A DNA stretch of 21,925 nt. It comes from a virus. The notes beneath the pieces are model-generated. The model saw only the letters and a list, made by a program, of their open reading frames with translations. It was not told where the DNA came from and made no database searches. The DNA is taken from IMG/VR virus record IMGVR_UViG_3300025889_001076, positions 1 through 21,925 of that record. One strand, written 5' to 3'. Of this stretch, positions 3,584 to 21,642 are shown piece by piece; the first letter of the stretch is position 1, and the number at the start of each line of letters is the position of its first letter. Both the position numbers and the translations under genes were made by a program.

Positions 3584-4123
3584 CTATGACCTCGTAATGG
3601 TGAGCGTGATTGTCACTGCTTCGATGGTGTCGCAGCTATCTACGTTGGGTCGAATGATGTCCCCAGCACTGATACTGGTTGTCCAGCCTGTCAGAGTGCT
3701 GTCTTGAGACTTTACCGCGCTCGATATGGTCGGAGGAGCCGCCGCCGTAATGGAGTCAGCGTCGGTCGGCGGGTAGTTGGCATAAGTGTCTTTCCACAGA
3801 TCGACAGTGATGTTGCCCGTCTGGTCCGCAAGCATCGTCACGGCGGTTATTGTGCCGGAATACGGAATGTAAACGTCTCGCTGTACCCCTGTGGTTATCG
3901 CACTCCCGCCGCCATCTATTACGAATGTGACAGCTTGCGAAAAGCTCGTTATTCCTCCAAGCGTAACATCCTGCCATGCCGTATCGTTCCAGTCGTAGAA
4001 CGAAAGAACTTCGGTATCCGTGGCGAAGTAAAAGGACAGCGTTCCTGTCGCAGCGGTGGGTGCAGCCGGGCGAGACGCCGCAGTGCCCTGCGCAAGGTAA
4101 TTGCCAACGAGTGAGCCCGCCAT
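3584..4123 (-). CDS. Fibre-type protein with shared C-terminal beta domain, 179 aa
   Basis: Residues 1-58 resemble a common phage fibre N-terminal module (the pattern RPAAPTAATGTLSFYFATDT, then WNDTAWQDV). Residues 64-179 form a beta domain with the core LADQTGNITVDLWKD and YANYPPTDADSIT. The same domain, with almost the same core, ends the collagen-like protein at 20782-21642. The family recurs in phage structural proteins and contains no catalytic residues I can identify. The start has GGAGAT seven bases upstream, and its ATG directly abuts the stop of the preceding gene. It is probably an accessory tail or capsid-surface protein; trimer formation is likely but not shown by the sequence. 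Confidence 0.65.
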   Translation of the reverse strand: MAGSLVGNYLAQGTAASRPAAPTAATGTLSFYFATDTEVLSFYDWNDTAWQDVTLGGITSFSQAVTFVIDGGGSAITTGVQRDVYIPYSGTITAVTMLADQTGNITVDLWKDTYANYPPTDADSITAAAPPTISSAVKSQDSTLTGWTTSISAGDIIRPNVDSCDTIEAVTITLTITRS

Positions 4124-4534
4124 TTACGTTATCTCCGCCATAATACACTCCCCAGCCTCAGTGACCACAAACTCAGGATCGGTGCCTCCTACAAGTTCAC
4201 CTGTTGTCAGCGGTGCGAAGATCGCGGCGGCGTCTCCCGTAACAGACACCACAAGCGTACTCCCTGCCCCGTTATCTTGCAGAGAAATGCCGTCCCCGGC
4301 CGTCAGCACACGCTCGTTCGTCAACGTAGCATCAACCGCGAGCGTGACATACTGCGGCGTCTCCAAAGCATCGGCGTTAGCCTGCGCGGCGGCGGCGTTT
4401 GTCAGAGCCTCTTGGACGCTCAATACAAGTTTGATGAGGTTCTGCCATTGCCGAATGAAGAAGGGCGTCGGAGCGCCGTTGCTCTGCGCGACGGGCACGT
4501 TGTTGGTAAGGGGATCGACCGGACTAACGGGCAT
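4124..4534 (-). CDS. Short tail needle/fibre-like protein, 136 aa
   Basis: I place the start at the ATG at 4534, overlapping the end of the gp10-like gene by 11 nt, because GGAG lies seven bases upstream. The longer in-frame extension to 4633 would lie wholly inside the upstream gene. Residues 20-36 (PTPFFIRQWQNLIKLVL) begin an amphipathic helix that continues through an Ala-rich stretch to about residue 55. Residues 60-90 hold YVTLAVDATLTNERVLTAGD followed by GISLQDNGAG, a motif widespread in phage fibres. It occupies the slot of the P22 needle gene gp26, so a plug or needle role is possible. It is much shorter than gp26 (233 residues) and lacks its long coiled coil, so this remains a positional guess. 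Confidence 0.55.
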   Translation of the reverse strand: MPVSPVDPLTNNVPVAQSNGAPTPFFIRQWQNLIKLVLSVQEALTNAAAAQANADALETPQYVTLAVDATLTNERVLTAGDGISLQDNGAGSTLVVSVTGDAAAIFAPLTTGELVGGTDPEFVVTEAGECIMAEIT

Positions 4535-6371
4535 TGTCGATCTCCGGTATCTCCACGTCGCAGCCGTCGATGCGCTTCGGCCCGCCGACATCCGTAATAC
4601 GGAAGATGCGGCCCGGCGCGGCAAAGGAACCAAGCGCGCGGTAAGCTACCTCTGCGTCATACTCGCCCTCTGTAAGCGCCACGGAGAACGGCCCAGTCCA
4701 GGTGCTGCCCCCGTCGTCGCTGAAATACAGGCTCATAGTCGCCGTCGTGCCGGAAGTAAGCTGCCCCGGCGAAACGGAAGCGCGCAACGCACCTACCGTG
4801 AGCTTGTTGCGGCTGCGGTGCGGGATAACCCCGGTCGCTGTATGCGTAACCGCAAGAGCGTCGTTGTCCTGTGCGGCAGCGGCAGAGCACTCCCAAACGT
4901 CGTTCGTGGTGCGGTCGCCGGCGACGATGCGTTTATCCCACATCACCCCTGCGACCATGTCCCAGTTAGCGAAGCCGGATGTTATGAACTCGCACCATTG
5001 TCCTGTCGTCACATCGTAGAGCCAGTTACCCTCGCTGCCGAGGTCTAGCACATAGAACGTATGCCCGTCATGCGTGAACGTCCACGCGCGTTGGCGACTA
5101 AGCGCGCTAGACGCCTCTTCTTCCGTCAGAACAGGCGTGGTGTCTTCGCCGAGATACCAGTACCTCCCCGAGCCAACAATGGCGTAAATGACTTGGCTGG
5201 CTCCTAAACGCTGGAAAAAAGCAGTCTCCTTCACAGGCGTAACGCCGGTAACGGTTTTCTCGAAAGTATCAACGTAGGTGATTGTATCGGTCGCCGTCGT
5301 GTAGATGTAACGGCGAAACCTGATTATCGTCGGCTGATCCGAGAAAAGCCGTGCAAAGGTGATTTCGTACCCGCCGGTGATCGCGCGAATATCGGGTCCG
5401 CCATAACAGTCTCGTGCGTTGGCGCTCGCTGCCCCTGCGTAGGTTGTAGCTTCGTCGTCCCATGGTTGCCCGAACCACGAACGCGCATCGCCTTTAGCGA
5501 CGTTGACTGTGCTCGTGGACTGGTTGATGTTCCAATACTCGGAACCGCTCGTGGTGATGTCAACTAACGAGGCGACCTCGTTATCCACCGAGTAGTCCGT
5601 CACATAGCTTATTACGTCATACGTTCCATCAGCGCGTGGGAGGATGCCTGCGGTATTGCCAACGGTTCGGCCCTGCGCAATGACGCTCGACCAGAAGTAA
5701 ATCCATCCCGCATTGTGTGCGCCCGTAAGCCGTGTAAAGTAAGGCGTCCACGACCCGGTTGACGTGTCCTGCGTCGTTCCCGACGTAGGCAGCTTAAGCA
5801 AGTACCCTGTGTCATAAGTCCCCGCAAAAAGCGTAAAGCCGCACCAACAGAGCGCGACCACATCCGTATCCGTGGCACTTGGGATGGCAGCAAAGCACCA
5901 AGATGGTCCCGGCGTGCCGTAGAACGCCGTCGGAGCGTTGTCTGTTTTCCGCAAGAACCCGCCGACAACCTCAACCGCGCTAGATGCGTTAACCCTGTAG
6001 ATGACGCCAACGGCGTAGGCGTACCCGTATCCAAGCGAACTGGTGTACCCCCCTGTCCCTCCATACTGCACTCCAAGTACAATGAACTTAGATGTCCCTG
6101 GAACATGGATTGGGGCTTGGCACATGGTAAAGGTGTCAGTTTCGACTACAGCCGTCAGCGTACCGGCAAGGCCCTGCAAGTCGTCTCGCCAAGAAGTGCT
6201 GGTTATGGTCTGTACAGACTTATCCTCTAACTGCCCTATCGTGATGTAACTGGTGGCTCCGGTCTGTCCGGCAACAACGTAATGGTTGCCGTCTTCCCCC
6301 AGCAAAGACAGGGAGTTCGAGCCATAAGAGCCCATAGTGGCGCCAAGATCAAGCGTGCCGCTAATAGGCAT
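4524..6371 (-). CDS. Tail plug protein, C-terminal half of gp10-like, with ~420-residue N-terminal addition
   Basis: Of 615 residues, the last 195 (421-615) follow the pattern of the second half of P22 gp10, the packaged-DNA stabilisation protein. They show a blade ending NWLYDVTTGQWCEF, then MWDKRIVAGDRTTNDVWEC, then SLYFSDDGGSTWTG, and finally IFRITDVGGPKRIDGCDVEI, which matches the gp10 ending in layout. Residues 1-420 have no counterpart in P22 gp10. They look like further beta-propeller or fibre-like blades with many Trp, Tyr and Gly. The start has AGGAGG six bases upstream, so this is a true separate gene and not an internal fragment. The preceding gene carries the first half of gp10. 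Together they would form the hub that seals the neck; the added part may reach the tail surface. Confidence 0.65.
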   Translation of the reverse strand: MPISGTLDLGATMGSYGSNSLSLLGEDGNHYVVAGQTGATSYITIGQLEDKSVQTITSTSWRDDLQGLAGTLTAVVETDTFTMCQAPIHVPGTSKFIVLGVQYGGTGGYTSSLGYGYAYAVGVIYRVNASSAVEVVGGFLRKTDNAPTAFYGTPGPSWCFAAIPSATDTDVVALCWCGFTLFAGTYDTGYLLKLPTSGTTQDTSTGSWTPYFTRLTGAHNAGWIYFWSSVIAQGRTVGNTAGILPRADGTYDVISYVTDYSVDNEVASLVDITTSGSEYWNINQSTSTVNVAKGDARSWFGQPWDDEATTYAGAASANARDCYGGPDIRAITGGYEITFARLFSDQPTIIRFRRYIYTTATDTITYVDTFEKTVTGVTPVKETAFFQRLGASQVIYAIVGSGRYWYLGEDTTPVLTEEEASSALSRQRAWTFTHDGHTFYVLDLGSEGNWLYDVTTGQWCEFITSGFANWDMVAGVMWDKRIVAGDRTTNDVWECSAAAAQDNDALAVTHTATGVIPHRSRNKLTVGALRASVSPGQLTSGTTATMSLYFSDDGGSTWTGPFSVALTEGEYDAEVAYRALGSFAAPGRIFRITDVGGPKRIDGCDVEIPEIDNAR

Positions 6372-6395: not shown

Positions 6396-7247
6396 TCACG
6401 GCAGCCCCTGCTCGAAGCGCAGGCGCGTGCGGATACGCTCCTCGATGCCGTTCGTGCTGATCTGACGAACGCCGGCGCCGACTTCGTACACCACGCCATC
6501 GTTGCCGACGACGATGACGCTTTCGCGCACGACGACAGGAGTTCCGTCCACGACACCGCGCGCAAACGCAAGGCCGGCCGTTGGGGCGAGCGGCGCATCT
6601 ACGTCCCCCGTCGCATACCAACTCTCCGTAGAGCCAGCGCCCATGACAAGCGCACGATCGCCGACGGTAAGCAGGTCGTTGACCGGATCCGGATTAGACT
6701 CTTTCGATAAGAAGTCGAGAGCGGCGATCGTGATTTCGCCGGGGCGTATGAAGTAAACCTTCTGCGTGTCGAGCACAGACACAAGGACGAAGCCGTTGAG
6801 GTTGGTGAGCGCCTTCGCAGTCTCGTTCATGTCCGGCATATCGACCGCACCGAGCGAATCTCCGCCTGCGTCGTAGTATTGCAGGTCCGTGCCGTCGGCG
6901 ATGAAAAGGTACTCATAGCCGATGCCCTTCATCCATGTAACATAAGGGTTTCCAGAGCCCGGCAATGTCCCTGTGATCGCTGTCGTAGTCGTGCCGTCAT
7001 AGCGGAATAGCGTATCCCCTGACACTACAAACAAGTCGCCGCCGAACAGACCATCCTTGTAGTAGCAGCCGCGGATAGGCCCCGCGCCGAACTGCTCAAG
7101 CGATGTCGTCCCAGGCCGCGCGATAAGGCGAATGCTCTCGATGAGATTTGTCGGCGCCTTCTCAACGTAGCGGTTTACAAGCTCAATCTCCGGCGCGGCG
7201 GGGAAGTCGCGCTTATAAGCGTGGATGCCGAGTGGGAGAGTGACCAT
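6396..7247 (-). CDS. Tail plug protein, N-terminal half of gp10-like
   Basis: The 283-residue protein matches the first half of P22 gp10 in order of elements. RLIARPGTTS near residue 50 corresponds to the P22 segment with a Pro-Gly loop. GCYYKDGLFGGDLFVVSGDT and LFRYDG make the first blade. NDLLTVGDRALVMGAGSTES and WYATGD fit the P22 segment ending in a Glu-Tyr-Phe. VVRESVIVVGNDGVVYEVGA and IEERIRTRL close it. The protein then stops, where P22 gp10 (472 residues) continues. The next gene resumes after 24 nt with its own strong ribosome-binding site. It sits directly after the gp4-like adaptor, as in P22. The start codon follows three bases after the adaptor stop, with only a weak Shine-Dalgarno, suggesting coupled translation. 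Confidence 0.65.
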   Translation of the reverse strand: MVTLPLGIHAYKRDFPAAPEIELVNRYVEKAPTNLIESIRLIARPGTTSLEQFGAGPIRGCYYKDGLFGGDLFVVSGDTLFRYDGTTTTAITGTLPGSGNPYVTWMKGIGYEYLFIADGTDLQYYDAGGDSLGAVDMPDMNETAKALTNLNGFVLVSVLDTQKVYFIRPGEITIAALDFLSKESNPDPVNDLLTVGDRALVMGAGSTESWYATGDVDAPLAPTAGLAFARGVVDGTPVVVRESVIVVGNDGVVYEVGAGVRQISTNGIEERIRTRLRFEQGLP

Positions 7248-8392: not shown

Positions 8393-9709
8393 TTATGAGC
8401 CGATGATGCGCGTACCCATCTCGCAGTCCGTCACCGAGGCACCGTACACGCAATCCCAACGATGGATGTGCGCGCCGGTCGAGATGTCGGACCCGCGCCA
8501 GTAGCGGATCGAGATGCCCGTCTCCGGGTCGGTGGCGAAGCTGGACTCGCCGGTGAACGGCGTTTCGAGCTTGGCCGACACCATGGCGATAGCGTTCTTC
8601 CGCCAAGCTGCGCGCACGGTGTACGCCGTGGACGCCGCGCCGACGAAGTTGACGTTGGCTCCGTCAACCGCCGCCGCGCTCACAGTCGCGAACGCGGTGT
8701 TAGCGTTGGTGTCCACGCCGTCGCTCGTGCCGGGAACGATGAGCGGAGGCGTGATAACCAGGTCCGTCTCGTTGCTGGAGAACGTCGCGGCAGATACGAC
8801 GGTGAACTGCTTCAGCCACGGAAGGGCCTTGCCGTTGCGCCAGTCGTAATCGTACACGCCCGCGATGGTCAGCACTTCGCCCGCCGTGATCGTGGTAGCG
8901 TCGGTCGTCGCGCCGTCGATGTGAATGGTCTGAGTGTAAGACCCAGCGTTCTTCACGTCGCGGTAGTTGACCGAAAGCGTACCGTTGTCGATCTGGCAAT
9001 CGTCGGCCGTCGCAACGCGCGAGCCGGTCGTCAACGTGGCGCATTGCTGCGTCTGGTAGAAGTTGACTTCCGAGATCATCGGGATACGGGCACGCTTCAA
9101 AGCGTCGGCGTTCTCGCTCTGGATATTGGACGACGCGATGTTGCCCATGATGAGTTCGCCGTCGGCCGGGTCGATGGTGGCGTTGAGCCCTTCCGTCGGC
9201 ACGCCGAGCTTGGCAAGGCGGGTGTAAGCCGCACGGGCCTGCACAGCCGATGCGATCGGGCTGGCAGCGGTTGCCGTGAGAGCGTTCACCGAGCCGGTAG
9301 CGGCGCCGGAAACCCAATTGTTGAAGCCCAGCACCTTCGACTGAAGGAACTTGTCGATTTGGTGCGAGAGCGTCTGCGCGGCGGACTTCATCGACTCGCT
9401 GCGCATAAGCTGGTTCCAACTCGTGATCGACTCAATGTCGCCGATCGACAAGTGGACCTTCGCGTACTGGTTGACGGCGATGTTGATGCTGCCGGTCACA
9501 ACGTCCTGCGTCGCGAGCGCGGCGCTGTACGCCGACGCGTCATTCGGAGCGAAGCGCGGGGGACGCTTGACGCTGATGGTCAGGCCATTCTGGTCGGTGA
9601 CTTCGTTGCGGTGGCGGCCGTCAACGAGCTTGCCCGTGACGAGGTTGTTCTTCGCCAGCAAGAGCATGACGTTCGCGTATTCGGTAGCATTGAGAAATGC
9701 GTTAGCCAT
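8393..9709 (-). CDS. Major capsid (coat) protein, P22 gp5-like
   Basis: The length (438 residues; P22 coat is 430) and element order fit the P22 branch of the HK97 fold. An N-terminal arm is followed by the P-loop region with SIGDIESITSW (88-98), a long spine helix (about 105-125, MKSAAQTLSHQIDKFLQSKV), and the segment LNATIDPADGELIMGN (175-190). Residues 224-330 fit the inserted I-domain, with QIDNGTLSVNY, then TAGEVLTIAGVYDYDW, then TDLVITPP. The last part, TGISIRYWRGSDISTGAHIH and RWDCVYGA, matches the closing beta strands. It follows the scaffold gene by 38 nt. A perfect hairpin (9713-9736) overlaps its ribosome-binding site, which may tune expression of this most abundant protein. Confidence 0.85.
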   Translation of the reverse strand: MANAFLNATEYANVMLLLAKNNLVTGKLVDGRHRNEVTDQNGLTISVKRPPRFAPNDASAYSAALATQDVVTGSINIAVNQYAKVHLSIGDIESITSWNQLMRSESMKSAAQTLSHQIDKFLQSKVLGFNNWVSGAATGSVNALTATAASPIASAVQARAAYTRLAKLGVPTEGLNATIDPADGELIMGNIASSNIQSENADALKRARIPMISEVNFYQTQQCATLTTGSRVATADDCQIDNGTLSVNYRDVKNAGSYTQTIHIDGATTDATTITAGEVLTIAGVYDYDWRNGKALPWLKQFTVVSAATFSSNETDLVITPPLIVPGTSDGVDTNANTAFATVSAAAVDGANVNFVGAASTAYTVRAAWRKNAIAMVSAKLETPFTGESSFATDPETGISIRYWRGSDISTGAHIHRWDCVYGASVTDCEMGTRIIGS

Positions 9710-9747: not shown

Positions 9748-10746
9748 CTAACTGCGCTGGTTTGTGGTCGCCATAGCCTCGAACGCCGAAAAATCGTTGG
9801 TGTCGGGGCCTACGGAGAACCTGCCTCCTGCTCCTCTCGGCTGCTTAGGCGCGGGCTGGAGCTTCAGCGGTTGCGTGGGTGTCGTGGGTTTTAGTTCTTC
9901 TGGCTTTGCAGCCGCGAACCGCGCCTCTAGGCGACCGAACGCAGCGGCCTGCTTATGAAGCGGGGCGCTGAGAACCTTACGACCCTCGGTGTCGGTCATA
10001 AGGTGGTAGAGAATCTTCTCGCCTACCTCCGAGCTGAGCACCATGTCGAAAAGCACGTCCGGTATGGAGACTTGCCCTTTGACAACCGGCTCGATGACCT
10101 TCTCGCGAAAATCCTCGAACTCGACTTCTCCGCGCTCGCACACGGCCTTCGTAGTAGTTGCGCGTTCTTGAGCTTCACGCTCAGCGGCCTCGCGCTGCCG
10201 AATATTCCTGTGCGCCTGCTCCGCGTGGTACGCGGTAACGTCGGCGATGTAGCGTTCGTCAAGCTGCCCGAACTCGTACTTATCCGGGTCAGGCTTTCCG
10301 TCCGCGTTAGGAATATTGTCCTGTTTTTTCGGATGTGTCAAGTCGCCCCTGCGAGGCACTGCTTCGCCGCGTTCTAAGGCGGCAAGGCGTTCCTCCAGAG
10401 CGGCCCTCTGGCGGCGTTCCTCGGCGACCTGACGCTCCGCCTCACGGCGGGCGTGCGTCAGTTCACCGATGCGCTCTTGGACCGTCTTTTTGGGTTTTTC
10501 CTTGGGCTTTTCTTGTTCTTCAGGCGCGTCGCCTCCTTCTCCAGACGCATCAGCGTCGGAGGATTCTTCAGACGCGACCGCAGATTCTTCGTCTTTGGCG
10601 GGCTCAGCGTCTCCGCTCCCAGCCGATCCATCGTCTTTTGCACCTGCGTCGGCGTCGGCCACGGGTTGAACCAAGACGCCATCCCGGTAAGAATCGCTGA
10701 CAAACCCCTCGAAAGCATTTTCACTCTCCTTGTTTGGACTCGGCAC
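9748..10746 (-). CDS. Scaffolding protein
   Basis: The 332-residue protein (P22 scaffold is 303) has an acidic, low-complexity stretch rich in Asp, Glu, Ala and Ser at 31-78. A Lys/Pro hinge follows at 79-88, then a strongly charged coiled-coil region at 88-128 (VQERIGELTHARREAERQVA). A mixed helical part runs to about 275, then a Pro/Lys/Gln-rich tail. This layout and the position between portal and coat are those of a capsid scaffold. It should direct coat assembly and then leave the prohead. The start is a GTG at 10746, backed by AAGGAG nine bases upstream, inside the portal gene; the overlap is 26 nt. There is little sequence motif to match, so the call relies on composition and synteny. 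Confidence 0.8.
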   Translation of the reverse strand: MPSPNKESENAFEGFVSDSYRDGVLVQPVADADAGAKDDGSAGSGDAEPAKDEESAVASEESSDADASGEGGDAPEEQEKPKEKPKKTVQERIGELTHARREAERQVAEERRQRAALEERLAALERGEAVPRRGDLTHPKKQDNIPNADGKPDPDKYEFGQLDERYIADVTAYHAEQAHRNIRQREAAEREAQERATTTKAVCERGEVEFEDFREKVIEPVVKGQVSIPDVLFDMVLSSEVGEKILYHLMTDTEGRKVLSAPLHKQAAAFGRLEARFAAAKPEELKPTTPTQPLKLQPAPKQPRGAGGRFSVGPDTNDFSAFEAMATTNQRS

Positions 10747-12772
10747 GCTTTTCTTCTCCTTCGTGGGCGACGCTGATCGCGTCTAGGTGATCGTGCAGCA
10801 TAGTGCTGCGCGCCTTCGTCTCCTCGGACGCGGCTTTGATCCGGGTATTGTCGGGCACCGCCGCTGCCTGCTCACGCAACAACGCAGCACGGGCGCGCTT
10901 CTCCTCGATAGTAGCCAACTTCTCAGCAATCTCGGTCTGCGCCATCTTCATATCGACTTCTGACTTGAGAGCGGCTGCTCTGGCTGCGCCTTCTTGTGCC
11001 GCTTGCTCCTCCGGGGTTTCCGGTTCGACGAGACCCGGCGGTAACATTTTACGCGCACGTTCCGCCATTTTGTCGGAGCCTGGGAAGTCAAAAGCCTCGA
11101 ACCACAAGTCAAGCATAGGCTGCATCGCCTGCGGAGCAGCGTTGAACACCGTCTCCATGCTTTGCCTCTGCTCCAGGCGCTTCGTGACGTAGCTCGGGCC
11201 GGTTGTGACCGTGACAGTGTACTTGCCTCCCGTGATGTCGATGCCGCCCGCTTGGTTGAGGGCTTGGAGCGAAACCTTGTCGTCTGGACCAAGAACTTTC
11301 TCGATGCGCGGCCCCGAGTAAACGTAACGGATGAGCTGGTTGGCAACGCGGCCGCACTCCTCGATCGCCATGTTTTCGTTGTCAATAAACACCACGGAGC
11401 CAAGCTCACCGACGCGCTGCCGCGCCACAATCGCGCGCCCGCTTACCTCGTTCGACTGTTGCCCGAGTGCCGCCTCGTGGATGTTGGAAATGTCTTTGAG
11501 GACCTGCTTATTGCGGTCCACTTCCTCGCTGATGGCGGGCTCAAGCTGCGCGGGCGGAACCTGCGTCGGCATTTGCCCCGCTTCGCCGTTGAAAATCAGC
11601 AAAGGGTCGTCGCTGATATGCGCGTCACGCCACTCTTTCTCGCGCCCTTGCACAGCCTCCGCGGAAGCGATGAACTTCGCCTTGGGGGTCTGGAGCAGCT
11701 TCTCGGCGCGCACGGAGCGCCAGTAGTTCAAATACCGCTGCGGATCCTTGAGGAACCGGACAATGCCCCAGCGGTGCCATTTGCCGTCCGCGAAAATCTC
11801 CCAGCCGGGAACGCGGAACACAGGCACGCGGTAAATCGGAAGGTCGTATGGCCCGGCCAATAGGTCCGTTCCCGTTACAATGTAGAGTTGAGCATACGGG
11901 CACAGCGCATCTTCTCGGATCATCGGCGCCCCCGTCGTGGGGTCAACCGCGATCATGGCCGGGTCAACCGGCCCCTCGTCGAGCCAATGGATAGCGCCGT
12001 TCGTCAGCATCGCGACAGGCCGAATACGCTTGCGCATACGCCAGAACGAAGCCACGCGCACCGTGTCTTGGTCCAGCCACCCGTTCGCAAGCAGCGATGG
12101 GTCGGTCAACACATCTGCGGCCGTCGCCCACGGGTACTCCCGCTGAAAGTCCTTTTTCGACATGCGATCGGAGATCGTGACGTGCCGCGCGTCGCGCCCT
12201 GTCGGATCGGTACGCATCCGGTCCCACAGCACCGACAGATGATCGGGGAAGCCCTCAATCACCATGTCCTGCTTGAACACGTCGTCATAGGCTTCTTCGA
12301 GCTTAAGCTGGAAGTTGCCGATGCCGCAGACGATCTGCGTCTCGCTCGCCGCGTCGAAAGCAACCTTGGCGCGCGATGTCTTCTGCATGTTGCGCAAAAG
12401 CCCTTCGCGCACGGTCGCCTCTGCCTTGTTGCCGCCGCCGTCGGGAAGAACCTTAATCGCAACCTCGTTGAGCCGCCTGTTGCCCGTCACCTGCCCGACA
12501 AATGCCGGCATGTAGTTTTCGGTCATTACAGGCTTCTTTTTGCGCGCCCTGCGCGCCTTTACGGCAGTATCCCACTGATCTCCGACGAAAAACTGCATGT
12601 CCTCAGTGGCGGCGTCGCGGTTTTCCTTGTCCGCCGCCTCGTCGAGCGCAACCTCGTCGCGGATATACGCGAGAAATTCCTCTTTACTGGCGAAGTCGTC
12701 GGGTGGCTGGATCTCGGGAGCCTCCTGCGACTCCTTCTCTGCCACGTTCGCGGACGAGAGAGACTTCAGCAT
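10721..12772 (-). CDS. Portal protein, P22 gp1-like
   Basis: The 683-residue protein (P22 portal is 725) shows the family's N-terminal pattern: a charged helix, then FFVGDQWD at 61-68 and TENYMPAFVGQVTGNRRLNE at 84-103. Further on come SVLWDRMRTDPTGRDARH, DDPLLIFNGEAG and NIHEAALGQQSNEVSGRAIV, typical of the P22 portal core and crown side. The last 75 residues (from about 608) are a continuous charged helix, as in the P22 C-terminal barrel. It forms the dodecameric vertex through which DNA is packaged and ejected. The ATG at 12772 overlaps the end of the 73-residue gene by 7 nt; the ribosome-binding site is weak (GAAGG, about 12 bases away), so coupling is likely. Confidence 0.9.
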   Translation of the reverse strand: MLKSLSSANVAEKESQEAPEIQPPDDFASKEEFLAYIRDEVALDEAADKENRDAATEDMQFFVGDQWDTAVKARRARKKKPVMTENYMPAFVGQVTGNRRLNEVAIKVLPDGGGNKAEATVREGLLRNMQKTSRAKVAFDAASETQIVCGIGNFQLKLEEAYDDVFKQDMVIEGFPDHLSVLWDRMRTDPTGRDARHVTISDRMSKKDFQREYPWATAADVLTDPSLLANGWLDQDTVRVASFWRMRKRIRPVAMLTNGAIHWLDEGPVDPAMIAVDPTTGAPMIREDALCPYAQLYIVTGTDLLAGPYDLPIYRVPVFRVPGWEIFADGKWHRWGIVRFLKDPQRYLNYWRSVRAEKLLQTPKAKFIASAEAVQGREKEWRDAHISDDPLLIFNGEAGQMPTQVPPAQLEPAISEEVDRNKQVLKDISNIHEAALGQQSNEVSGRAIVARQRVGELGSVVFIDNENMAIEECGRVANQLIRYVYSGPRIEKVLGPDDKVSLQALNQAGGIDITGGKYTVTVTTGPSYVTKRLEQRQSMETVFNAAPQAMQPMLDLWFEAFDFPGSDKMAERARKMLPPGLVEPETPEEQAAQEGAARAAALKSEVDMKMAQTEIAEKLATIEEKRARAALLREQAAAVPDNTRIKAASEETKARSTMLHDHLDAISVAHEGEEKRAESKQGE

Positions 12773-12987: not shown

Positions 12988-14613
12988 TCAGCCCATCCAC
13001 TCGTAAGCGGAGCCCTGAGAGGTGTCATCCTGCCATATCTCTACGCTACGATTGGCCGGACTGTCAACGTCCCCGAATTTAGGAACCGGCTTTGGCTCGC
13101 TGAACTTCGTTATGAACTCATTCTGAGCGAAAGTAAGCGCGATGGCGTCGGCTAGGTCCGGAGAACGCACACCCCTCCGCTTCATCTCGTCCTTGCTCTC
13201 AAGCAGAAAGTCGCCGCTGAGGCGCGGCTTCATCTTGGGCGCCGTCATGTCCGCCTGAAGCGCGTCAAGGTCGGGGATGGAAGGCCCCAAATCGTCCATG
13301 AGCCAGTCGCGAAGCCGCTGCCACATCTCCGCGCGGCGGTTCGCCGGGCCGGGCGCTTTGGGCTTGGCGAGCTTCTGCTCGGCCGTTCCGCCGAAGTTAA
13401 CGCCCCTCACCTTTTCGACATACTTGGGGCCGATATGCTTTAGCCCCGTCACAATGGCGTGGCCGATGCCACCGGCGTCCACGTTAACTCGCGCTGGGTC
13501 CATCTCGTCGATCAGCGAGCGCACCCACGCGATACCCTCCTGCGCGTCGATCTTGCTGCGGTGCTTGACCCACAAGACCTGCGGGCCGCGGCGCGCGGCT
13601 ACGCTGAAGCGGTCCCCGCCCATGCTTGCAGGGTCAACCCCCAGGATCATCGGGCCGTAGCCCTCCGTTGCGCGCTTACGAGCGCGTAAGACGTGCAAAG
13701 GTGCTATGAAGGGCTCATGCGCCGCCGTAACCCAAGCCTCGGCGGCTGTGGAGGGGTACTCCTGCCTGAAAAGGGATTCGGAGCGCAACTCCATGATCTT
13801 CGCGCGGCGCCACGCCATCTGCGCGAGTGAAAGGCCGAATGCCTCGGCATACTCGGCCTCGCTCATCGCGCCTTCTTCTGCGTCGCTCAGAAGCTCGAAA
13901 CCGGTCTCCGGCTCACGCGAATACTCAGGAGACACGAACCACGGCACGAAAATCGCGATGTAGTCCCCGCGCCCGGCCTCTGCGTCCTGCCACCGCTCGT
14001 AAAACTCTCCGCCTGGTCCGTTGGCGGTGGACTCAAGGATAACCTCGGTCCCTTCCAGCAACGGCACCGCCTGAACGGACGATGCGAAGTGATCCGCCGC
14101 GTTCGACCAGAACGCGACTTCGGAGCCGTGGAACAGTGAAATGGAACGCGATCGACCTCCGGCCTTCTGCCCTGCCGTCGCGACGACGTAGGACGAGTCC
14201 AACTTGTCGAACACAAGCTCTTTTACGTTGGAGGTGCCAATATGAGGAGCAACAGGGTTGTGTCGCTGATAGCGGTCAACGATCCCGAAGAGGTTGTCGG
14301 AAGCGGTCTGCTCATGGGCGAGGATGTAGGTGTTGGTGCCACCATAAAGACTAGTGCGGTGATAAAAGCGCCCAGCAACGTAAGTGGAAGCGCCCTGCTG
14401 GCGGCCCTTGAGAATAAGCGCCCTAACCCAGCCTTTTTCATCCTTCTGCTCCTCCAGCCGAGAATGGATAAGCCGCTGCGCCGTGTTAAGCGCAAGCGGC
14501 TCCGTCTTACCCCCCTTAGTGCGGATACTAAGGCACTGCGCCGCGAAGAGTGGGAAATCTTCGCGGTACAGCGCCAGTCGTTGAGCCAGCTTTAACCTGT
14601 CTTCAGGGCTCAC
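12988..14613 (-). CDS. terL: Terminase large subunit
   Basis: The packaging motor ATPase and nuclease, 541 residues. In the ATPase domain a deviant Walker A lies at 70-77 (GRQQGAST), a Walker B with hydrophobic strand and catalytic Glu at 158-164 (ISLFHGSE), and a coupling motif at 192-198 (ILESTAN). The RNase H-like nuclease domain has the three expected acidic residues: D327 in ILGVDPASMGGDRF, D379 in VNVDAGGIGHA and D489 in SPDLADAIALTFA. The start is a GTG at 14613, two bases after the stop of the second paralogue. No clear Shine-Dalgarno precedes it and no in-frame ATG is nearby, so coupled translation is likely. It works with the small terminase and docks on the portal encoded downstream. 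It is separated from the small subunit by four genes, which is unusual. Confidence 0.92.
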   Translation of the reverse strand: MSPEDRLKLAQRLALYREDFPLFAAQCLSIRTKGGKTEPLALNTAQRLIHSRLEEQKDEKGWVRALILKGRQQGASTYVAGRFYHRTSLYGGTNTYILAHEQTASDNLFGIVDRYQRHNPVAPHIGTSNVKELVFDKLDSSYVVATAGQKAGGRSRSISLFHGSEVAFWSNAADHFASSVQAVPLLEGTEVILESTANGPGGEFYERWQDAEAGRGDYIAIFVPWFVSPEYSREPETGFELLSDAEEGAMSEAEYAEAFGLSLAQMAWRRAKIMELRSESLFRQEYPSTAAEAWVTAAHEPFIAPLHVLRARKRATEGYGPMILGVDPASMGGDRFSVAARRGPQVLWVKHRSKIDAQEGIAWVRSLIDEMDPARVNVDAGGIGHAIVTGLKHIGPKYVEKVRGVNFGGTAEQKLAKPKAPGPANRRAEMWQRLRDWLMDDLGPSIPDLDALQADMTAPKMKPRLSGDFLLESKDEMKRRGVRSPDLADAIALTFAQNEFITKFSEPKPVPKFGDVDSPANRSVEIWQDDTSQGSAYEWMG

Positions 14614-14615
14614 GA

Positions 14616-15185
14616 TTACGAAGTGACGTTGCCAACCTCTGCAAGCCAGATGTCAACGGTGCCGTTGAACGTCAGCGTCCCATCTGCCGCGAGCCCGTCA
14701 TCGTCGCACGCGGCGTTGAGATAAATGTCGTTCGTAGCAGAGTCGATGATGGCTCCTGGGCTGTAGGAAGCCGTGTTGGAAGTAATGCGGGACGCCTCGA
14801 TGGAGAAGCCTGACGCCTGCGCGTCCTTGTCCTGCGCCCCGAGAATGTTGGCGTCGGCGCCGTCGAGAGCTTCAGAAGCGGCGGTAACGGATCCAACCGA
14901 GAACACGATGTCGTCGGCGGTGACAAAATCCCCCCCTTTAGTGACAACGAGATCGACCTCGGAGTTGAGAACAACGAAGTTCTTATCAGGGAGCCGCGCA
15001 ACTGCGGTCCCGCCGATCGACGTAGCTCCAGAGACTACGGTCACAACCACATTGGTAAGGGTAAGCGTAATGCGCTGAACCCTCGACTCGTTGCTTCTGG
15101 TATGCGCGACAACCGCGCCGTTAAGGAAAACCGCAGGGGTTACGGCAACAGGTTCGCCTATCTTCAGTTCAAGGGGCGTAGTCAT
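14616..15185 (-). CDS. Beta-rich phage protein, paralogue B of a tandem pair
   Basis: The 189-residue protein is nearly all alternating hydrophobic and small polar residues, suggesting a beta fold. It is a paralogue of the preceding gene. Both have an ITLTxxxVTV strand, a (F/V)xLPD(K/R)N(F/I) motif (here RLPDKNFVVLNSEVDLVV), an AADDI or TADDI segment, and end in GT(V/I)D(L/I)W followed by xxxVGNVTS. The start has GGAGGAT five to seven bases upstream. Placed just before the large terminase, it could be a capsid decoration or other virion protein, but I know no function for it. It lacks the 40-residue N-terminal extension of its partner. Confidence 0.6.
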   Translation of the reverse strand: MTTPLELKIGEPVAVTPAVFLNGAVVAHTRSNESRVQRITLTLTNVVVTVVSGATSIGGTAVARLPDKNFVVLNSEVDLVVTKGGDFVTADDIVFSVGSVTAASEALDGADANILGAQDKDAQASGFSIEASRITSNTASYSPGAIIDSATNDIYLNAACDDDGLAADGTLTFNGTVDIWLAEVGNVTS

Positions 15186-16075: not shown

Positions 16076-16104
16076 ACTATGCCGTAGGACTTTTTTCCTG
16101 TCAA
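16076..16104 (-). promoter_or_regulatory. Candidate sigma70-type promoter for paralogue pair and head genes
   Basis: The minus strand has a perfect -35 box TTGACA (plus 16099-16104), a 17-base spacer, and CATAGT (plus 16076-16081, 4/6) as the -10 box. It overlaps the stop of the 58-residue gene and faces a leader of about 110 nt. This is the best promoter match in the window. Confidence 0.55.
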
Positions 16105-16277
16105 GCGGACGGTTGGGAAGTCTCGCTGATAAGCGAAAGCTGCCCGTTCTCAATGATGGCGATGCGTTGCCGGATCGCTTCGCAGTTCTGCTTGTAGCCA
16201 GGCTTGCCGGTGCGCGCGGCCAAGAGGGCGCGGAGGCGGGCAAGTTCGGCGGAGTTGTCTTGGGGTTGGGGGGTCAC
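16101..16277 (-). CDS. Unknown small helical protein, 58 aa
   Basis: I place the start at a GTG at 16277, because AAGGAG lies eight bases upstream and the GTGA overlap with the preceding stop is typical of this operon. A longer GTG start at 16301 lacks such a signal. The product has a Leu/Arg/Ala-rich helix (residues 10-22, SAELARLRALLAA), a turn with GKPGYKQN, and a second helix (CEAIRQRIAIIE), then a polar tail. This looks like a small helical hairpin. I know no function. It is coupled to the Acb2/Tad1-like gene and ends on the next promoter, closing the small early-type module. Confidence 0.55.
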   Translation of the reverse strand: MTPQPQDNSAELARLRALLAARTGKPGYKQNCEAIRQRIAIIENGQLSLISETSQPSA

Positions 16278-16522
16278 GATGTAAGCTCCTTCACAACCCA
16301 CATGATGGACTGCTCAAGCGATGTAAGCGCAAGCGAGTTGTAGCGCCCCGGCTTGACCTTGCCGAACAGATCCTCAAGCTCCGCCGCCTTGGTCTTGATG
16401 GCGTCGTGAAGTGCCTTCTCGTCATCGGTGAGAGCGCGGTACGTCGGACGGAACCTGGAAACCTTGCGCGCTACATCGTCGCTCTGGCGGGAGTCAGGCT
16501 TTCCTTCAAACACGTTACTCAT
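16274..16522 (-). CDS. Acb2/Tad1-type hairpin protein, putative cyclic-nucleotide sponge
   Basis: I start this 82-residue protein at the ATG at 16522 (GAGG upstream, 8-nt overlap with the small terminase gene). The longer frame to 16609 lies inside that gene. Residues 24-31 (FRPTYRAL) lead into helix 1 (32-55, DDEKALHDAIKTKAAELEDL). Helix 2 follows (59-80) with GRYNSLALTSLEQSIMWVVK and ELT. The combination of an IKxKAxELE helix and an R-x-x-SLALTxLExxxMWxxKxxT helix is how I know the Acb2/Tad1 hairpin family of phage proteins. Characterised members sequester cyclic oligonucleotides or gcADPR-type signals and so block CBASS or Thoeris defence. A sponge role here is inferred from the motif; ligand and activity are unknown. 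An alternative is an uncharacterised structural relative with another ligand. The position between the terminase genes is notable. Confidence 0.68.
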   Translation of the reverse strand: MSNVFEGKPDSRQSDDVARKVSRFRPTYRALTDDEKALHDAIKTKAAELEDLFGKVKPGRYNSLALTSLEQSIMWVVKELTS

Positions 16523-16814
16523 CCTCAACCTCTTTTGGGGTAATGTCGATCGTCTTGGCGTCAAGCTGGCGCAGCAAGTCATCGACGGATTCACTAACCT
16601 GTACGTCATGCTCCCTCGGAATCATCCGAATCCAGCACTTCTCGTAAAACCACTTGGGGTCGCTGTCGGCGACATCCGAGAAACGCTGCTGCCCGCCGAT
16701 GTCCTCGAAAGCGGTTATCACCGCGCTCTTGGCGTATTTCGCATAGTGCGCAAGGACGTTGCCTTCCGCATCCGACTGGATGGGCTTCAAGCGGCGGAGA
16801 GCACTAACGGTCAT
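16515..16814 (-). CDS. Putative terminase small subunit
   Basis: The 99-residue protein has the pattern AVITAFEDIGGQQRFSDVAD at 31-50 followed by PKWFYEKCWIRMIPRE (53-68). This corresponds to the AFExIGG...WAxxxPxxFYxKxxxxxxPxE signature of small terminase-like phage proteins. An acidic C-terminal tail (70-99) ends in EVEDE. P22 gp3 is 162 residues, so this is short and probably a minimal form, with DNA binding in the N-terminal part. The start ATG overlaps the stop of the 32-residue microprotein as ATGA. It is separated from the large subunit by the sponge candidate, a 58-residue gene and the paralogue pair. It may instead be a related regulator, but the signature and position favour packaging. 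Confidence 0.6.
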   Translation of the reverse strand: MTVSALRRLKPIQSDAEGNVLAHYAKYAKSAVITAFEDIGGQQRFSDVADSDPKWFYEKCWIRMIPREHDVQVSESVDDLLRQLDAKTIDITPKEVEDE

Positions 16815-16966: not shown

Positions 16967-18811
16967 CTACATCGAGATTATACGGAACGTGGATCCGCTG
17001 GCGGGGGCCGCGGAAACGGTTCCCGTGGCGCTCATCGCTATAGAAGGGAGAATCTGCGCTATCGAGCCGGTGAACGCCTCGCTTGCCATTGCGCTCTGTA
17101 TTATCGCGGAAAGCGTCTGCGCTGCTGCCCCTGTGTAAACCTGAGCCCCTGCGGCTGCCTGTGTTATACTTGGAAGGGTTTGGTCCGCCGTGCCGGTAGC
17201 GTTGTCGATATGCAGCCCAGCGGCGGCTTGGGCAATGGCCGGGAGCATCTGCGCTATCGCGCCAGCGAACGTCTCCGCGCCGGTTGCAGCTTGCGAAATG
17301 CTCGGTAGGGTTTGCGCCGCAGCGCCTGTGAACGTCTCAGTTCCGCTCGCGGCCTGTGCGATAGACGGCAAGGTTTGGGCTGCGGTGCCGGTGAACGTCT
17401 CGGTGCCGGACGCGGATTGTGCGATGGCGGGGAGTGTCTGGTCAGCCGCGCCAGTAACGTTGACGGTGTGCGTACCGCTCGCGGCCTGCGCTATGGACGG
17501 CAAGGTTTGAGCGGCGGCGCCTGTGAAAGTCTCGGTGCCGCTCGCCGCCTGCGTAACGGACGGTAGAGTTTGGGCAGCGGCGCCGGTGAACGTCTCAGTT
17601 CCGCTCGCGGCCTGTGCGATAGACGGCAAGGTTTGGGCTGCGGTGCCGGTGAACGTCTCGGTGCCGGACGCGGCTTGCGTAATAGACGGAAGGGTTTGAT
17701 CGGCGGCACCGGTGACGTTTACGGTATGTGTACCGCTCGCGGCCTGTGTGATCGACGGCAGAGTTTGGGCCGCGGAGCCGGTGAACGTCTCGGTGCCGCT
17801 CGCCGCCTGCGAGAGGCTTGGAAGCGTTTGAGCCGCCGTGCCGGTGAAAGTCTCGGTGCCGCTCGCCGCCTGGGCAATAGCCGGCAGGGTTTGGCTTGCC
17901 GCCCCCGTGAAGCTCTCTGTCCCAGCGGCAGCTTGCGACAAACTCGGGAGAGTTTGAGCAGCGGTGCCGGAAACTGCCTCGGCATGTATTCCGCTCGCGG
18001 CCTGGGCGAGCTTTGGAAGAGTTTGAGCCGCCGCGCCGGTGAACGTCTCGGTGCCGGACGCGGATTGTGTGATCTTCGGAAGTGTCTGCGCCGATGTGCC
18101 TGTTGCACCGCTCGCCTCAGAACGAAGAATGATATAGGTTCTGGCGCTGTCTCGGCCCGTCGCTGACGTACACGCCCAGTCTTGGTCGCCAGTGGCAGTG
18201 ACAGTTTTGTACTGCATCGACAGCGTCATGCACGAGTTATCCGCGCCACCATCGTTCAATACCGTGTCGATGGAGGACCAGTCGCCGTTTGTAGTGTCGC
18301 TGTCGCCAGTAATTGCATCGTCGGTCTCAATCGCCGCCGATGCAAAAATTGTATCTCCGCTCGTAACAGAGGCGGTGGGAGCTGAATAGGTTGTAGTGTT
18401 ACCAGTTTCGCCAGTTTCATCAGCGGAAACGAACGAGGCAGTCTCGCCAGTTCCAGGGCGGAACCTGATAAAGTGAACAGCTGCTTGACTAACGGCCGGG
18501 GAGAAGTTCACAAAAAGGCCTACCGTGGAATCGCTTACGGTTGGCTCAATAGTCACCTTTATAAGTTCTGCGCCAGCTCCGGCCGAACCTGGGTCATAAA
18601 GAATCTGCGCTCGGATGGTAGCTCCCGGAAAGCTATTCCAGCCGTTCCCGGTGACACTTGAGAAGCAAGACGCGCCGCCAGACCCGTCATTTGAGGCTGC
18701 TATTTCAACTAAGAAAAGATCCCCAGCGGCGCAATCATGGTTAGGATTAAGGATTACCTCATTGCCACCCGAGCCAGTTTTTGACTCTAATAGTGTAATT
18801 GTAGCGGCCAT
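16967..18811 (-). CDS. Repeat-bearing virion surface protein, 614 aa
   Basis: Residues 1-238 form a beta-rich head domain with no motif I can assign. It is Ser/Thr/Gly-rich and ends ARTYIILRSEASG. Residues 239-597 hold 17 degenerate repeats of 21 or 23 residues with the consensus TAAQTLPSIAQAASGTETFTG minus minor changes. The 23-residue form (ending GTHTVNVTG or a variant) is found at units 2, 6, 10 and 14, that is, every fourth unit. A short tail (TVSAAPASGSTFRIISM) follows. No signal peptide or catalytic motif is visible. Such regular Ala/Thr/Gly repeats suggest a long fibrous or solenoid stalk. The gene is preceded by the 90-residue gene, with GAGGG before the ATG. A fibre or decoration role on the virion is likely but not certain. 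Confidence 0.65.
   Translation of the reverse strand: MAATITLLESKTGSGGNEVILNPNHDCAAGDLFLVEIAASNDGSGGASCFSSVTGNGWNSFPGATIRAQILYDPGSAGAGAELIKVTIEPTVSDSTVGLFVNFSPAVSQAAVHFIRFRPGTGETASFVSADETGETGNTTTYSAPTASVTSGDTIFASAAIETDDAITGDSDTTNGDWSSIDTVLNDGGADNSCMTLSMQYKTVTATGDQDWACTSATGRDSARTYIILRSEASGATGTSAQTLPKITQSASGTETFTGAAAQTLPKLAQAASGIHAEAVSGTAAQTLPSLSQAAAGTESFTGAASQTLPAIAQAASGTETFTGTAAQTLPSLSQAASGTETFTGSAAQTLPSITQAASGTHTVNVTGAADQTLPSITQAASGTETFTGTAAQTLPSIAQAASGTETFTGAAAQTLPSVTQAASGTETFTGAAAQTLPSIAQAASGTHTVNVTGAADQTLPAIAQSASGTETFTGTAAQTLPSIAQAASGTETFTGAAAQTLPSISQAATGAETFAGAIAQMLPAIAQAAAGLHIDNATGTADQTLPSITQAAAGAQVYTGAAAQTLSAIIQSAMASEAFTGSIAQILPSIAMSATGTVSAAPASGSTFRIISM
17021..18097 (-). repeat. Coding tandem repeat, 17 units with 258-nt super-period
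   Basis: Seventeen consecutive coding units of 63 or 69 nt, with the last one truncated. The 69-nt units recur every fourth unit, giving a higher-order period of 258 nt (86 codons). An exact 88-nt match between 17328-17415 and 17586-17673, at an offset of exactly 258, confirms the super-period at DNA level. Confidence 0.85.
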
Positions 18812-19110: not shown

Positions 19111-19689
19111 TTAAAAGATAAAATCAGTTTCAACCGGCATAGTGCCGAGTACGTCGATGCCCAAATCCCATTGCGGATTGCCAGCAATTTGGTGGACCAC
19201 AACGCGGTATTCGCCAACGTCCAAGGTAAGCACTTCCACGTCAGCCCAAGTGATCGAATAGACTTCCGAAATGCCGTCCCCGTTCGTGTCGATGTATTTC
19301 AGAAGCTGATCGCCGGAGAAGTCGACCTTGTCCACGCCGCTCTCGAAGTCGGTAATGGTGTCGCGTTCGCCGTCTCGATTCGGAGACCAGTTCCACCCGT
19401 CGTTCAGTGGAACCCAAAACCCATCGTCGATCTTGAACGTGTCAGCACCAGCACCACCAGTGAGGGTATCTGCGCCCCACGTCCCGATCAGCACGTCGTC
19501 GCCGTCACCACCGATGAGAATGTCATCCCCGGTGCCACCGTGCAGGATGTCGTTTCCTTCGTCGCCGTATAGCGTATCATTGCCTTGCCCACCGAATATG
19601 ATGTCGTCCCCGCCGAGGCCGTGTGTCGTGTCCTTCTTATTGGTTCCGGCAATATGATCGTTTCCGGCGGTTCCATTAATTTTCGCCAT
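19111..19689 (-). CDS. RTX calcium-binding protein with type I secretion-like C-terminus
   Basis: Residues 24-86 contain about seven glycine-rich nonapeptides of the RTX type ([36 protein letters not shown] and so on), which bind calcium and fold into a parallel beta roll. They are followed by [20 protein letters not shown] (107-126), the capping motif seen after RTX repeats in serralysin-type proteins. DTNGDGISE (134-142) resembles an EF-hand loop. The chain ends DFIF, an acidic residue plus three hydrophobics, the form of C-terminal signal used by some type I secreted proteins. No enzymatic domain is present in 192 residues. The start has AGGAG eight bases upstream. In a virion gene block it may be a calcium-dependent surface protein, or a secreted cargo gene. 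Confidence 0.8.
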
Positions 19690-20781: not shown

Positions 20782-21642
20782 CTACACCCTGCGGTAATTC
20801 AACGTCACCGTGACTCTCTCAACGGTGGATGCAGACAAAACTTTGACCCGCAGCGACGTACCACGGGGAATAGCTCTTGTCCAGTTCAACAGCCCTGTAC
20901 CGTACCACGACGCGGCACTCGTCAGCGTCAGCGGGTTGCCTCCGGTAATCGAGTTCCCAGCCGTGGGCGGGAAGTTGTCCACCGTCTCGGCCCACAGGTC
21001 CACTTGGATGTCCCCGGCCTGGTCGGCGAGGAGCGCGGCGGACTCGATGTAAATGGGGGTGTTCCACGGCCCTAGATCGCCCTCCAGCCCTACGGCGACG
21101 GGCGACCCGTTACCCTCCAGCACGAAGCCGACCGTGCCCAGCGCGTCTTGGGGAGCGCCAGAGCCCATGACGATCGTTTCCCCCGGTGGACCTGCCGGCC
21201 CACGCTTGCCGTCTTTGCCATCCTTGCCGTCGCGGCCTGGGCGGCCGTCTTCGCCCCTCAGCCCCGGAGGGCCTTGCGGGCCTACGTCGCCCTTTGGGCC
21301 TTGCGGACCCGTAGCGCCTTGAGGGCCGGGCGGTCCCTGCGGGCCTTCCGGGCCTGTTTCACCTTGAGGGCCTTCCGGGCCTGTTTCACCTTGGGGACCA
21401 GCCTCACCTTGCGGTCCCTCAGCCCCGTCGAGGCCGCGGACGCGGGTGGACATGGTGTCGAAGAGTTGGGTGATCTGATCGACCGGAACGGAACTGTCCT
21501 TGCCGGGGTCGCCTTTCGGCCCCTTCAAAGCGCCGGACTGGATGAGATGCACAAGCCTGTCGATCGCGGAGCCAACATCGTTGGTCCCGAGCACGCGGTT
21601 GTAGTGCGGTACGTCGTAGGCTTCGGGCATCCTTGCGAGCAC
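20782..21642 (-). CDS. Collagen-like fibre protein with shared C-terminal beta domain
   Basis: Of 286 residues, 70-156 are 29 uninterrupted Gly-X-Y triplets with many Pro, Lys, Asp and Gln (for example [13 protein letters not shown], then [17 protein letters not shown]), which form a collagen-type triple helix. Three more triplets lie at 41-49. An N-terminal helix (22-66) may trimerise the chain. Residues 172-286 are the beta domain shared with the 179-residue protein at 3584-4123 (core [16 protein letters not shown] and [12 protein letters not shown]). The start is uncertain: a GTG at 21642 with GAG close upstream, or an ATG at 21630 with no usable Shine-Dalgarno. It is the first gene after the endonuclease, behind a candidate promoter. 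A trimeric fibre on the virion is likely. Confidence 0.8.

Follow-up and report, generated by a model that had tools for sequence, protein, structure and literature searches.

A candidate Acb2-like nucleotide sponge gene among the packaging genes of a viral contig with a P22-like head module

In phages T4 and PaMx33 the Acb2 sponges are encoded away from the virion genes, and a sponge gene located in a packaging operon looks mistimed. Such a location is seen for a small gene in an IMG/VR virus record, the 21,925 bases of which (hereafter the window) are a contig, that is a fragment, without attached host genome. The window contains a P22-like head module, and its annotated genes are on the minus strand:

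16515..16814, minus strand, orf99 (99 aa), positional small-terminase candidate, with homologues upstream of the terminase large subunit gene in several relatives
16274..16522, minus strand, acb2-like gene (82 aa), coding for a 27-residue N-terminal arm and an Acb2/Tad1 hairpin (Pfam match over residues 27-78)
16101..16277, minus strand, 58-aa ORF with a GTG start and a 4-nt overlap (GTGA) with the acb2-like stop codon; a homologue is found in loci L038 and L039
15275..15982, minus strand, phrog_11997 protein with no assigned function, between the acb2-like gene and TerL
14616..15185, minus strand, second phrog_11997 protein, paralogue of the preceding one, also between the acb2-like gene and TerL
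12988..14613, minus strand, terminase large subunit (TerL; phrog_2, E 9.8e-30)
10721-12772, minus strand, portal of the P22-like head module
9748-10746, minus strand, scaffold of the P22-like head module
8393-9709, minus strand, P22-type coat protein of the P22-like head module

The minus-strand interval 16274-16522 codes for the 82-aa product MSNVFEGKPDSRQSDDVARKVSRFRPTYRALTDDEKALHDAIKTKAAELEDLFGKVKPGRYNSLALTSLEQSIMWVVKELTS. The initial annotation had proposed this ORF and its 8-nt overlap with orf99 (16515-16814), and both held on closer analysis: the ATG is conserved and the sequence constrained across relatives, and the overlap is exactly 8 nt (ATGAGTAA). An alternative in-frame ATG at 16609 would yield a longer product of 111 aa. 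This start was ruled out, because the proteins of the relatives, compared in an alignment and profile of 32 sequences (A1), begin at a methionine aligned with the 82-aa start and because a purine-rich ribosome-binding stretch (AGAGG/GAGG) lies just upstream of that start. The gene had further been described as lying between the terminase genes. TerL is certain, whereas orf99 is called a small terminase by its position, as no TerS-family match for it or its homologues was found in Pfam, PHROGs or NCBIfam and its structure model was too poor for a structure search (pLDDT 53.6). Homologues of orf99 are found just before TerL in L044, L045 and L047, and a search of the viral contigs with orf99 alone found no relative. 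The acb2-like gene is not adjacent to TerL, since the 58-aa ORF and the two phrog_11997 genes intervene.

Membership in the Acb2/Tad1 hairpin family, known for sequestering the signal molecules by which bacteria kill infected cells, had first been suggested from a motif and was confirmed by profile search. The 82-aa protein matched Pfam PF24729.2 over profile positions 1-54 of 58 with an E-value of 1.6e-14 and 54.2 bits, twice the curated cut-off of 27 bits, and it also matched phrog_1454 (1.8e-7). When the A1 profile was compared to PDB chains, the two Acb2 crystal sequences ranked first and were collinear over both helices, albeit with weak E-values of 0.15 each, and hhalign aligned it to PaMx33 Acb2 over 54 columns with a probability of 87.6 and an E-value of 3.5e-6. 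Phmmer with the single 82-aa protein found nothing relevant in the PDB, so that the family profile was needed. Profile comparison did not recover T4 Vs.4 (probability 2.6), which is too distant for this test, and neither PADLOC nor NCBIfam gave a useful match for the 82-aa protein.

The two-helix layout that had been proposed for the product was predicted confidently by AlphaFold2 on the A1 alignment, with helices at residues 33-53 and 60-81, a pLDDT that exceeds 90 in most of the hairpin and averages 83.5 overall. Foldseek against the PDB returned only Acb2, T4 Vs.4 or Tad1 chains at ranks 1 to 17, the best match being 8h2x_E (probability 0.98, rmsd 1.8); its E-values were weak (0.47 at best), as the fold is a small hairpin. 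Since hairpins are common and unrelated ones reach equal Z in VIA-align, Z alone does not separate them, and it is the sequence profiles that support assignment of the protein to the Acb2/Tad1 family. Within this family the modelled anatomy is Acb2-like. Tad1 of a Clostridium botulinum prophage (PDB 7UAV, 8KBF) shares the C-terminal PF24729 hairpin but carries an N-terminal domain with a four-strand beta-sheet and is 132 aa long (8kbb), compared to 82 aa here. Our model, in which approximately 30 residues precede the first helix, contains no strand as long as three residues, and membership in Tad1 was ruled out by the absence of the N-terminal beta domain.

Among the closest known systems, Acb2 of the Pseudomonas phages PaMx33 and PaP2 (PDB 8H2J, 8H2X, 8IXZ) has the same hairpin domain, both helices collinear with those of the 82-aa protein, the Tyr and Lys of the cyclic-dinucleotide site at the same distance of 15 residues, and an Arg67 for which the 82-aa protein has an equivalent. 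The corresponding codons in the window are:

16439..16441, minus strand, Tyr28, aligned with Y11 of PaMx33/PaP2 Acb2 and Y8 of T4 Acb2 (cyclic-dinucleotide site)
16394..16396, minus strand, Lys43, aligned with K26 of Acb2 and K23 of T4
16343..16345, minus strand, Arg60, aligned with R67 of PaMx33 Acb2, with no Arg at this position in T4

All three residues are invariant in A1. In PaMx33 Acb2, K26 contributes to the cyclic-dinucleotide pocket and R67 is part of the cyclic-trinucleotide site. T4 Vs.4 (Acb2, PDB 7UQ2) is a Foldseek match with the same helix pair, and its Tyr8 and Lys23 align with Tyr28 and Lys43. Within the 16-residue span that Tyr28 and Lys43 delimit, these two are the only residues identical in the window, PaMx33 and T4 proteins. 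The Y8A substitution in T4 Acb2 was reported to disrupt cyclic-dinucleotide binding (PMC12657218). Phe82 of T4 Acb2, which stacks on the ligand (PMC12657218), coincides with Thr81 of the window protein in the alignment of the window, PaMx33 and T4 sequences.

The protein also differs from PaMx33 Acb2, in which the stretch between the helices is 24 residues longer than the short turn found here and the DxRQ arm is lacking. Six positions of the 27-residue arm (D10, R12, Q13, F24, R25 and P26) are invariant in A1, and phages Aussie, SI2 and ctCJ8213 encode relatives that likewise have a D-x-R arm. In the AlphaFold2 model no helix was predicted for the arm, where the pLDDT is low (about 47-74), whereas Acb2 has a short N-terminal helix there. 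The pocket may therefore differ from that of Acb2, as the 24-residue turn insertion is missing and the arm replaces the short helix. A ligand other than the classical CBASS cyclic nucleotides, such as 3'cADPR or a different product of a TIR enzyme, whose specificity the arm would set, is an alternative that would refine the sponge reading and is compatible with it. The arm is conserved in this family and absent from both PaMx33 and T4 Acb2, and 'Acb2 homolog 43' (9ptq), a short-turn protein of 69 residues solved with 3'cADPR, aligns with the model over 57 residues (rmsd 2.1). However, the Z of 6.8 for 9ptq is middling and tied with unrelated hairpins, and the retained Arg60, at the position of R67 in Acb2, would fit cyclic trinucleotides. 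We regard such a ligand as a serious possibility, though one at somewhat worse than even odds.

The acb2-like gene was compared to 28 relatives, giving a median pS of 0.70, with synonymous sites near saturation, and a pN of 0.18. This indicates that the protein is under strong purifying selection and that the spread of the gene is not recent. No trace of recent import was seen in base composition, the GC and GC3 of acb2 being 0.57 and 0.72 compared to 0.61 and 0.74 for TerL. In contrast to the predicted sponge, the gene could in principle code for a degenerate, non-binding hairpin protein retained by chance. This is highly improbable given the strong purifying selection across unrelated genomes and the 28 invariant columns among the 32 sequences of A1.

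Relatives with 40-84% identity were found in 34 viral and 10 alphaproteobacterial loci. Those in the 34 viral contigs are 64-83% identical to the 82-aa protein, and those in the ten bacterial contigs 40-76%; as the latter are all from Alphaproteobacteria, an alphaproteobacterial host is suggested. Besides acb2, these viral contigs and the window have almost nothing in common. Among 990 pairs formed by 45 loci, only 105 have any flanking gene in common and only 16 have at least three, several of these being near-copies. The relatives are thus found in mostly unrelated contexts, and acb2 acts like a portable cassette, an accessory gene carried by many unrelated phages. Directly after acb2, many times with a 1-nt overlap, a gene of 73-98 aa that we named F1 family is often found (L005, L011, L012, L015, L016, L017 and L066). 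This gene occurs in a Bradyrhizobium-type phage group and is possibly a functional partner of acb2.

In seven relatives and the window, a terminase, capsid, connector or virion gene is no more than two genes away from acb2, loci being classified only where a large recognisable gene is near, so that the counts describe a non-random sample. The gene orders are acb2-TerS-TerL in L022, TerL-acb2 in L034, capsid-acb2 in L033 and head-tail adaptor-acb2 in L021, with a capsid gene two genes away in L014, a virion structural gene two genes away in L030, connectors on both sides in phage Aussie and the positional TerS (orf99) alongside in the window. The Aussie relative, AUSSIE_37 of this Sinorhizobium phage (WPJ67960.1, a hypothetical protein), is 45.8% identical and has the same type of D-x-R arm and a short turn; its gene stands between head-to-tail connector genes, whereas the head/tail module of Aussie is a long-tailed gene set, different from that of the window. 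In L004 and L032, tail or virion genes are four to five genes from acb2.

Such placement of relatives beside TerL, capsid and connector genes, together with the embedding of the gene in the packaging operon and its 8-nt overlap with orf99, would also fit a packaging or virion component (a connector, a scaffold helper or a partner of the small terminase) built on a common helical hairpin and without any signalling role. Close relatives, however, are also found near genes for recombination (an exonuclease, RecT), primase or integrase (L005, L006, L024, L029, L035, L066 and phage ctCJ8213). A single clade of virion-module copies was rejected (AU p 0.005), which indicates that placement in virion modules arose more than once. 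Parsimony gave six placement changes, of which at least two are forced by well-supported branches, on a tree of the 82-residue protein that is poorly resolved. Moreover, the gene has no history shared with the packaging genes, as L037 is the only one among 22 records carrying a related TerL to encode a PF24729 protein, and that of another subfamily. The pocket residues are also kept. A packaging role is therefore improbable, if less so than chance retention, and the sponge remains the preferred reading.

The L037 record has a TerL 77% identical to that of the window. Its PF24729 protein (1214-1423; 70 aa, 34.7 bits, above the cut-off) belongs to a subfamily different from that of the window protein, and its gene occupies the same slot, just after the orf99 homologue. 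In L044, L045 and L047, TerL directly follows the orf99 homologue with nothing in between. The interval between orf99 and TerL thus accepts cargo, and either it acquired sponge-type genes on two occasions or one such gene was exchanged for another. A broader proposal would be that phages put interchangeable sponges in packaging and capsid operons because the trigger is made there, that the P22-like orf99-terL slot took up two PF24729 subfamilies (window and L037), and that the armed subfamily has a ligand specificity of its own; we consider this extended form doubtful. In IMG/VR, the L037 subfamily (FEYLKPTDDQ...MWANVAITR) is represented by at least 156 close relatives, and across 80 loci (the L074-L153 set) Tyr8 and Arg23, which replaces the Lys, are nearly invariant.

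Given the family, the fold, the conservation of the pocket residues, the purifying selection, the mobility and the recurrent placement in late modules that were established here, we infer with a probability of roughly 0.8 that the gene codes for an Acb2-like nucleotide sponge that is oligomeric, binds cyclic nucleotides, is portable and is co-translated with late triggers. The hairpin would very probably oligomerise like Acb2, a compact homohexamer that binds cyclic di- or trinucleotides and releases them intact, and bind a cyclic nucleotide messenger, with Tyr28 and Lys43 lining the pockets. Candidate ligands are the cyclic oligonucleotides of CBASS and a cyclic ADP-ribose of the Thoeris type, and with the messenger bound, the host effector would stay off.

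That a sponge made late would be oddly timed, as the initial annotation had supposed, does not hold, since close relatives recur in virion modules and both CBASS and Thoeris have published triggers that are made late. A CBASS-activating RNA (cabRNA) is made from terS-terL in staphylococcal phages (PMC10686824), Thoeris senses the major capsid protein (PMC11312562), and a prohead protease was shown to interact with a CBASS sensor (PMC12409349). A sponge in a virion or packaging operon would be translated alongside late products that trigger CBASS or Thoeris and would thus appear together with the trigger. The Acb2 sponges of PaMx33 and T4 are placed otherwise: in PaMx33, acb2 closes the replication module, and the T4 Vs.4 gene lies in the vs/regB region, away from the packaging genes. 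No report of sponges in structural or packaging modules was found in the open-access literature. A promoter and terminator scan gave nothing convincing, with four promoter-like sites compared to 1.6 expected, one of them being TTGACG-18-TAAACT at 16965-16936, upstream of orf99 (9-of-12 match); late expression thus remains a prediction. That a single conserved and mobile family of sponges recurs next to the terminase, capsid and connector genes of unrelated phages suggests that such proteins are also deployed together with late products that trigger CBASS or Thoeris, and additional counter-defence genes may be sought in the intervals flanking terS, terL and the capsid gene.

Several other features of the window were observed. 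A 614-aa protein (16967-18811) contains many near-identical repeats (AAQTLPSITQAASGTETFTG) and has no family match. Two adjacent genes (4524-6371 and 6396-7247) match consecutive parts of phrog_578 (head closure Hc3; profile positions 4-279 and 285-453), as though they resulted from a split, and the second of them begins with about 420 additional residues. One C-terminal domain (phrog_35197) is present twice, in a short protein (3584-4123) and as the last part of a tail-fibre-like protein with collagen repeats (20782-21642). Finally, the product of 19111-19689, encoded between virion-protein and tail-fibre-like genes, carries RTX calcium-binding nonapeptide repeats (Pfam, E 4.9e-24) and is likely to be a virion surface protein.
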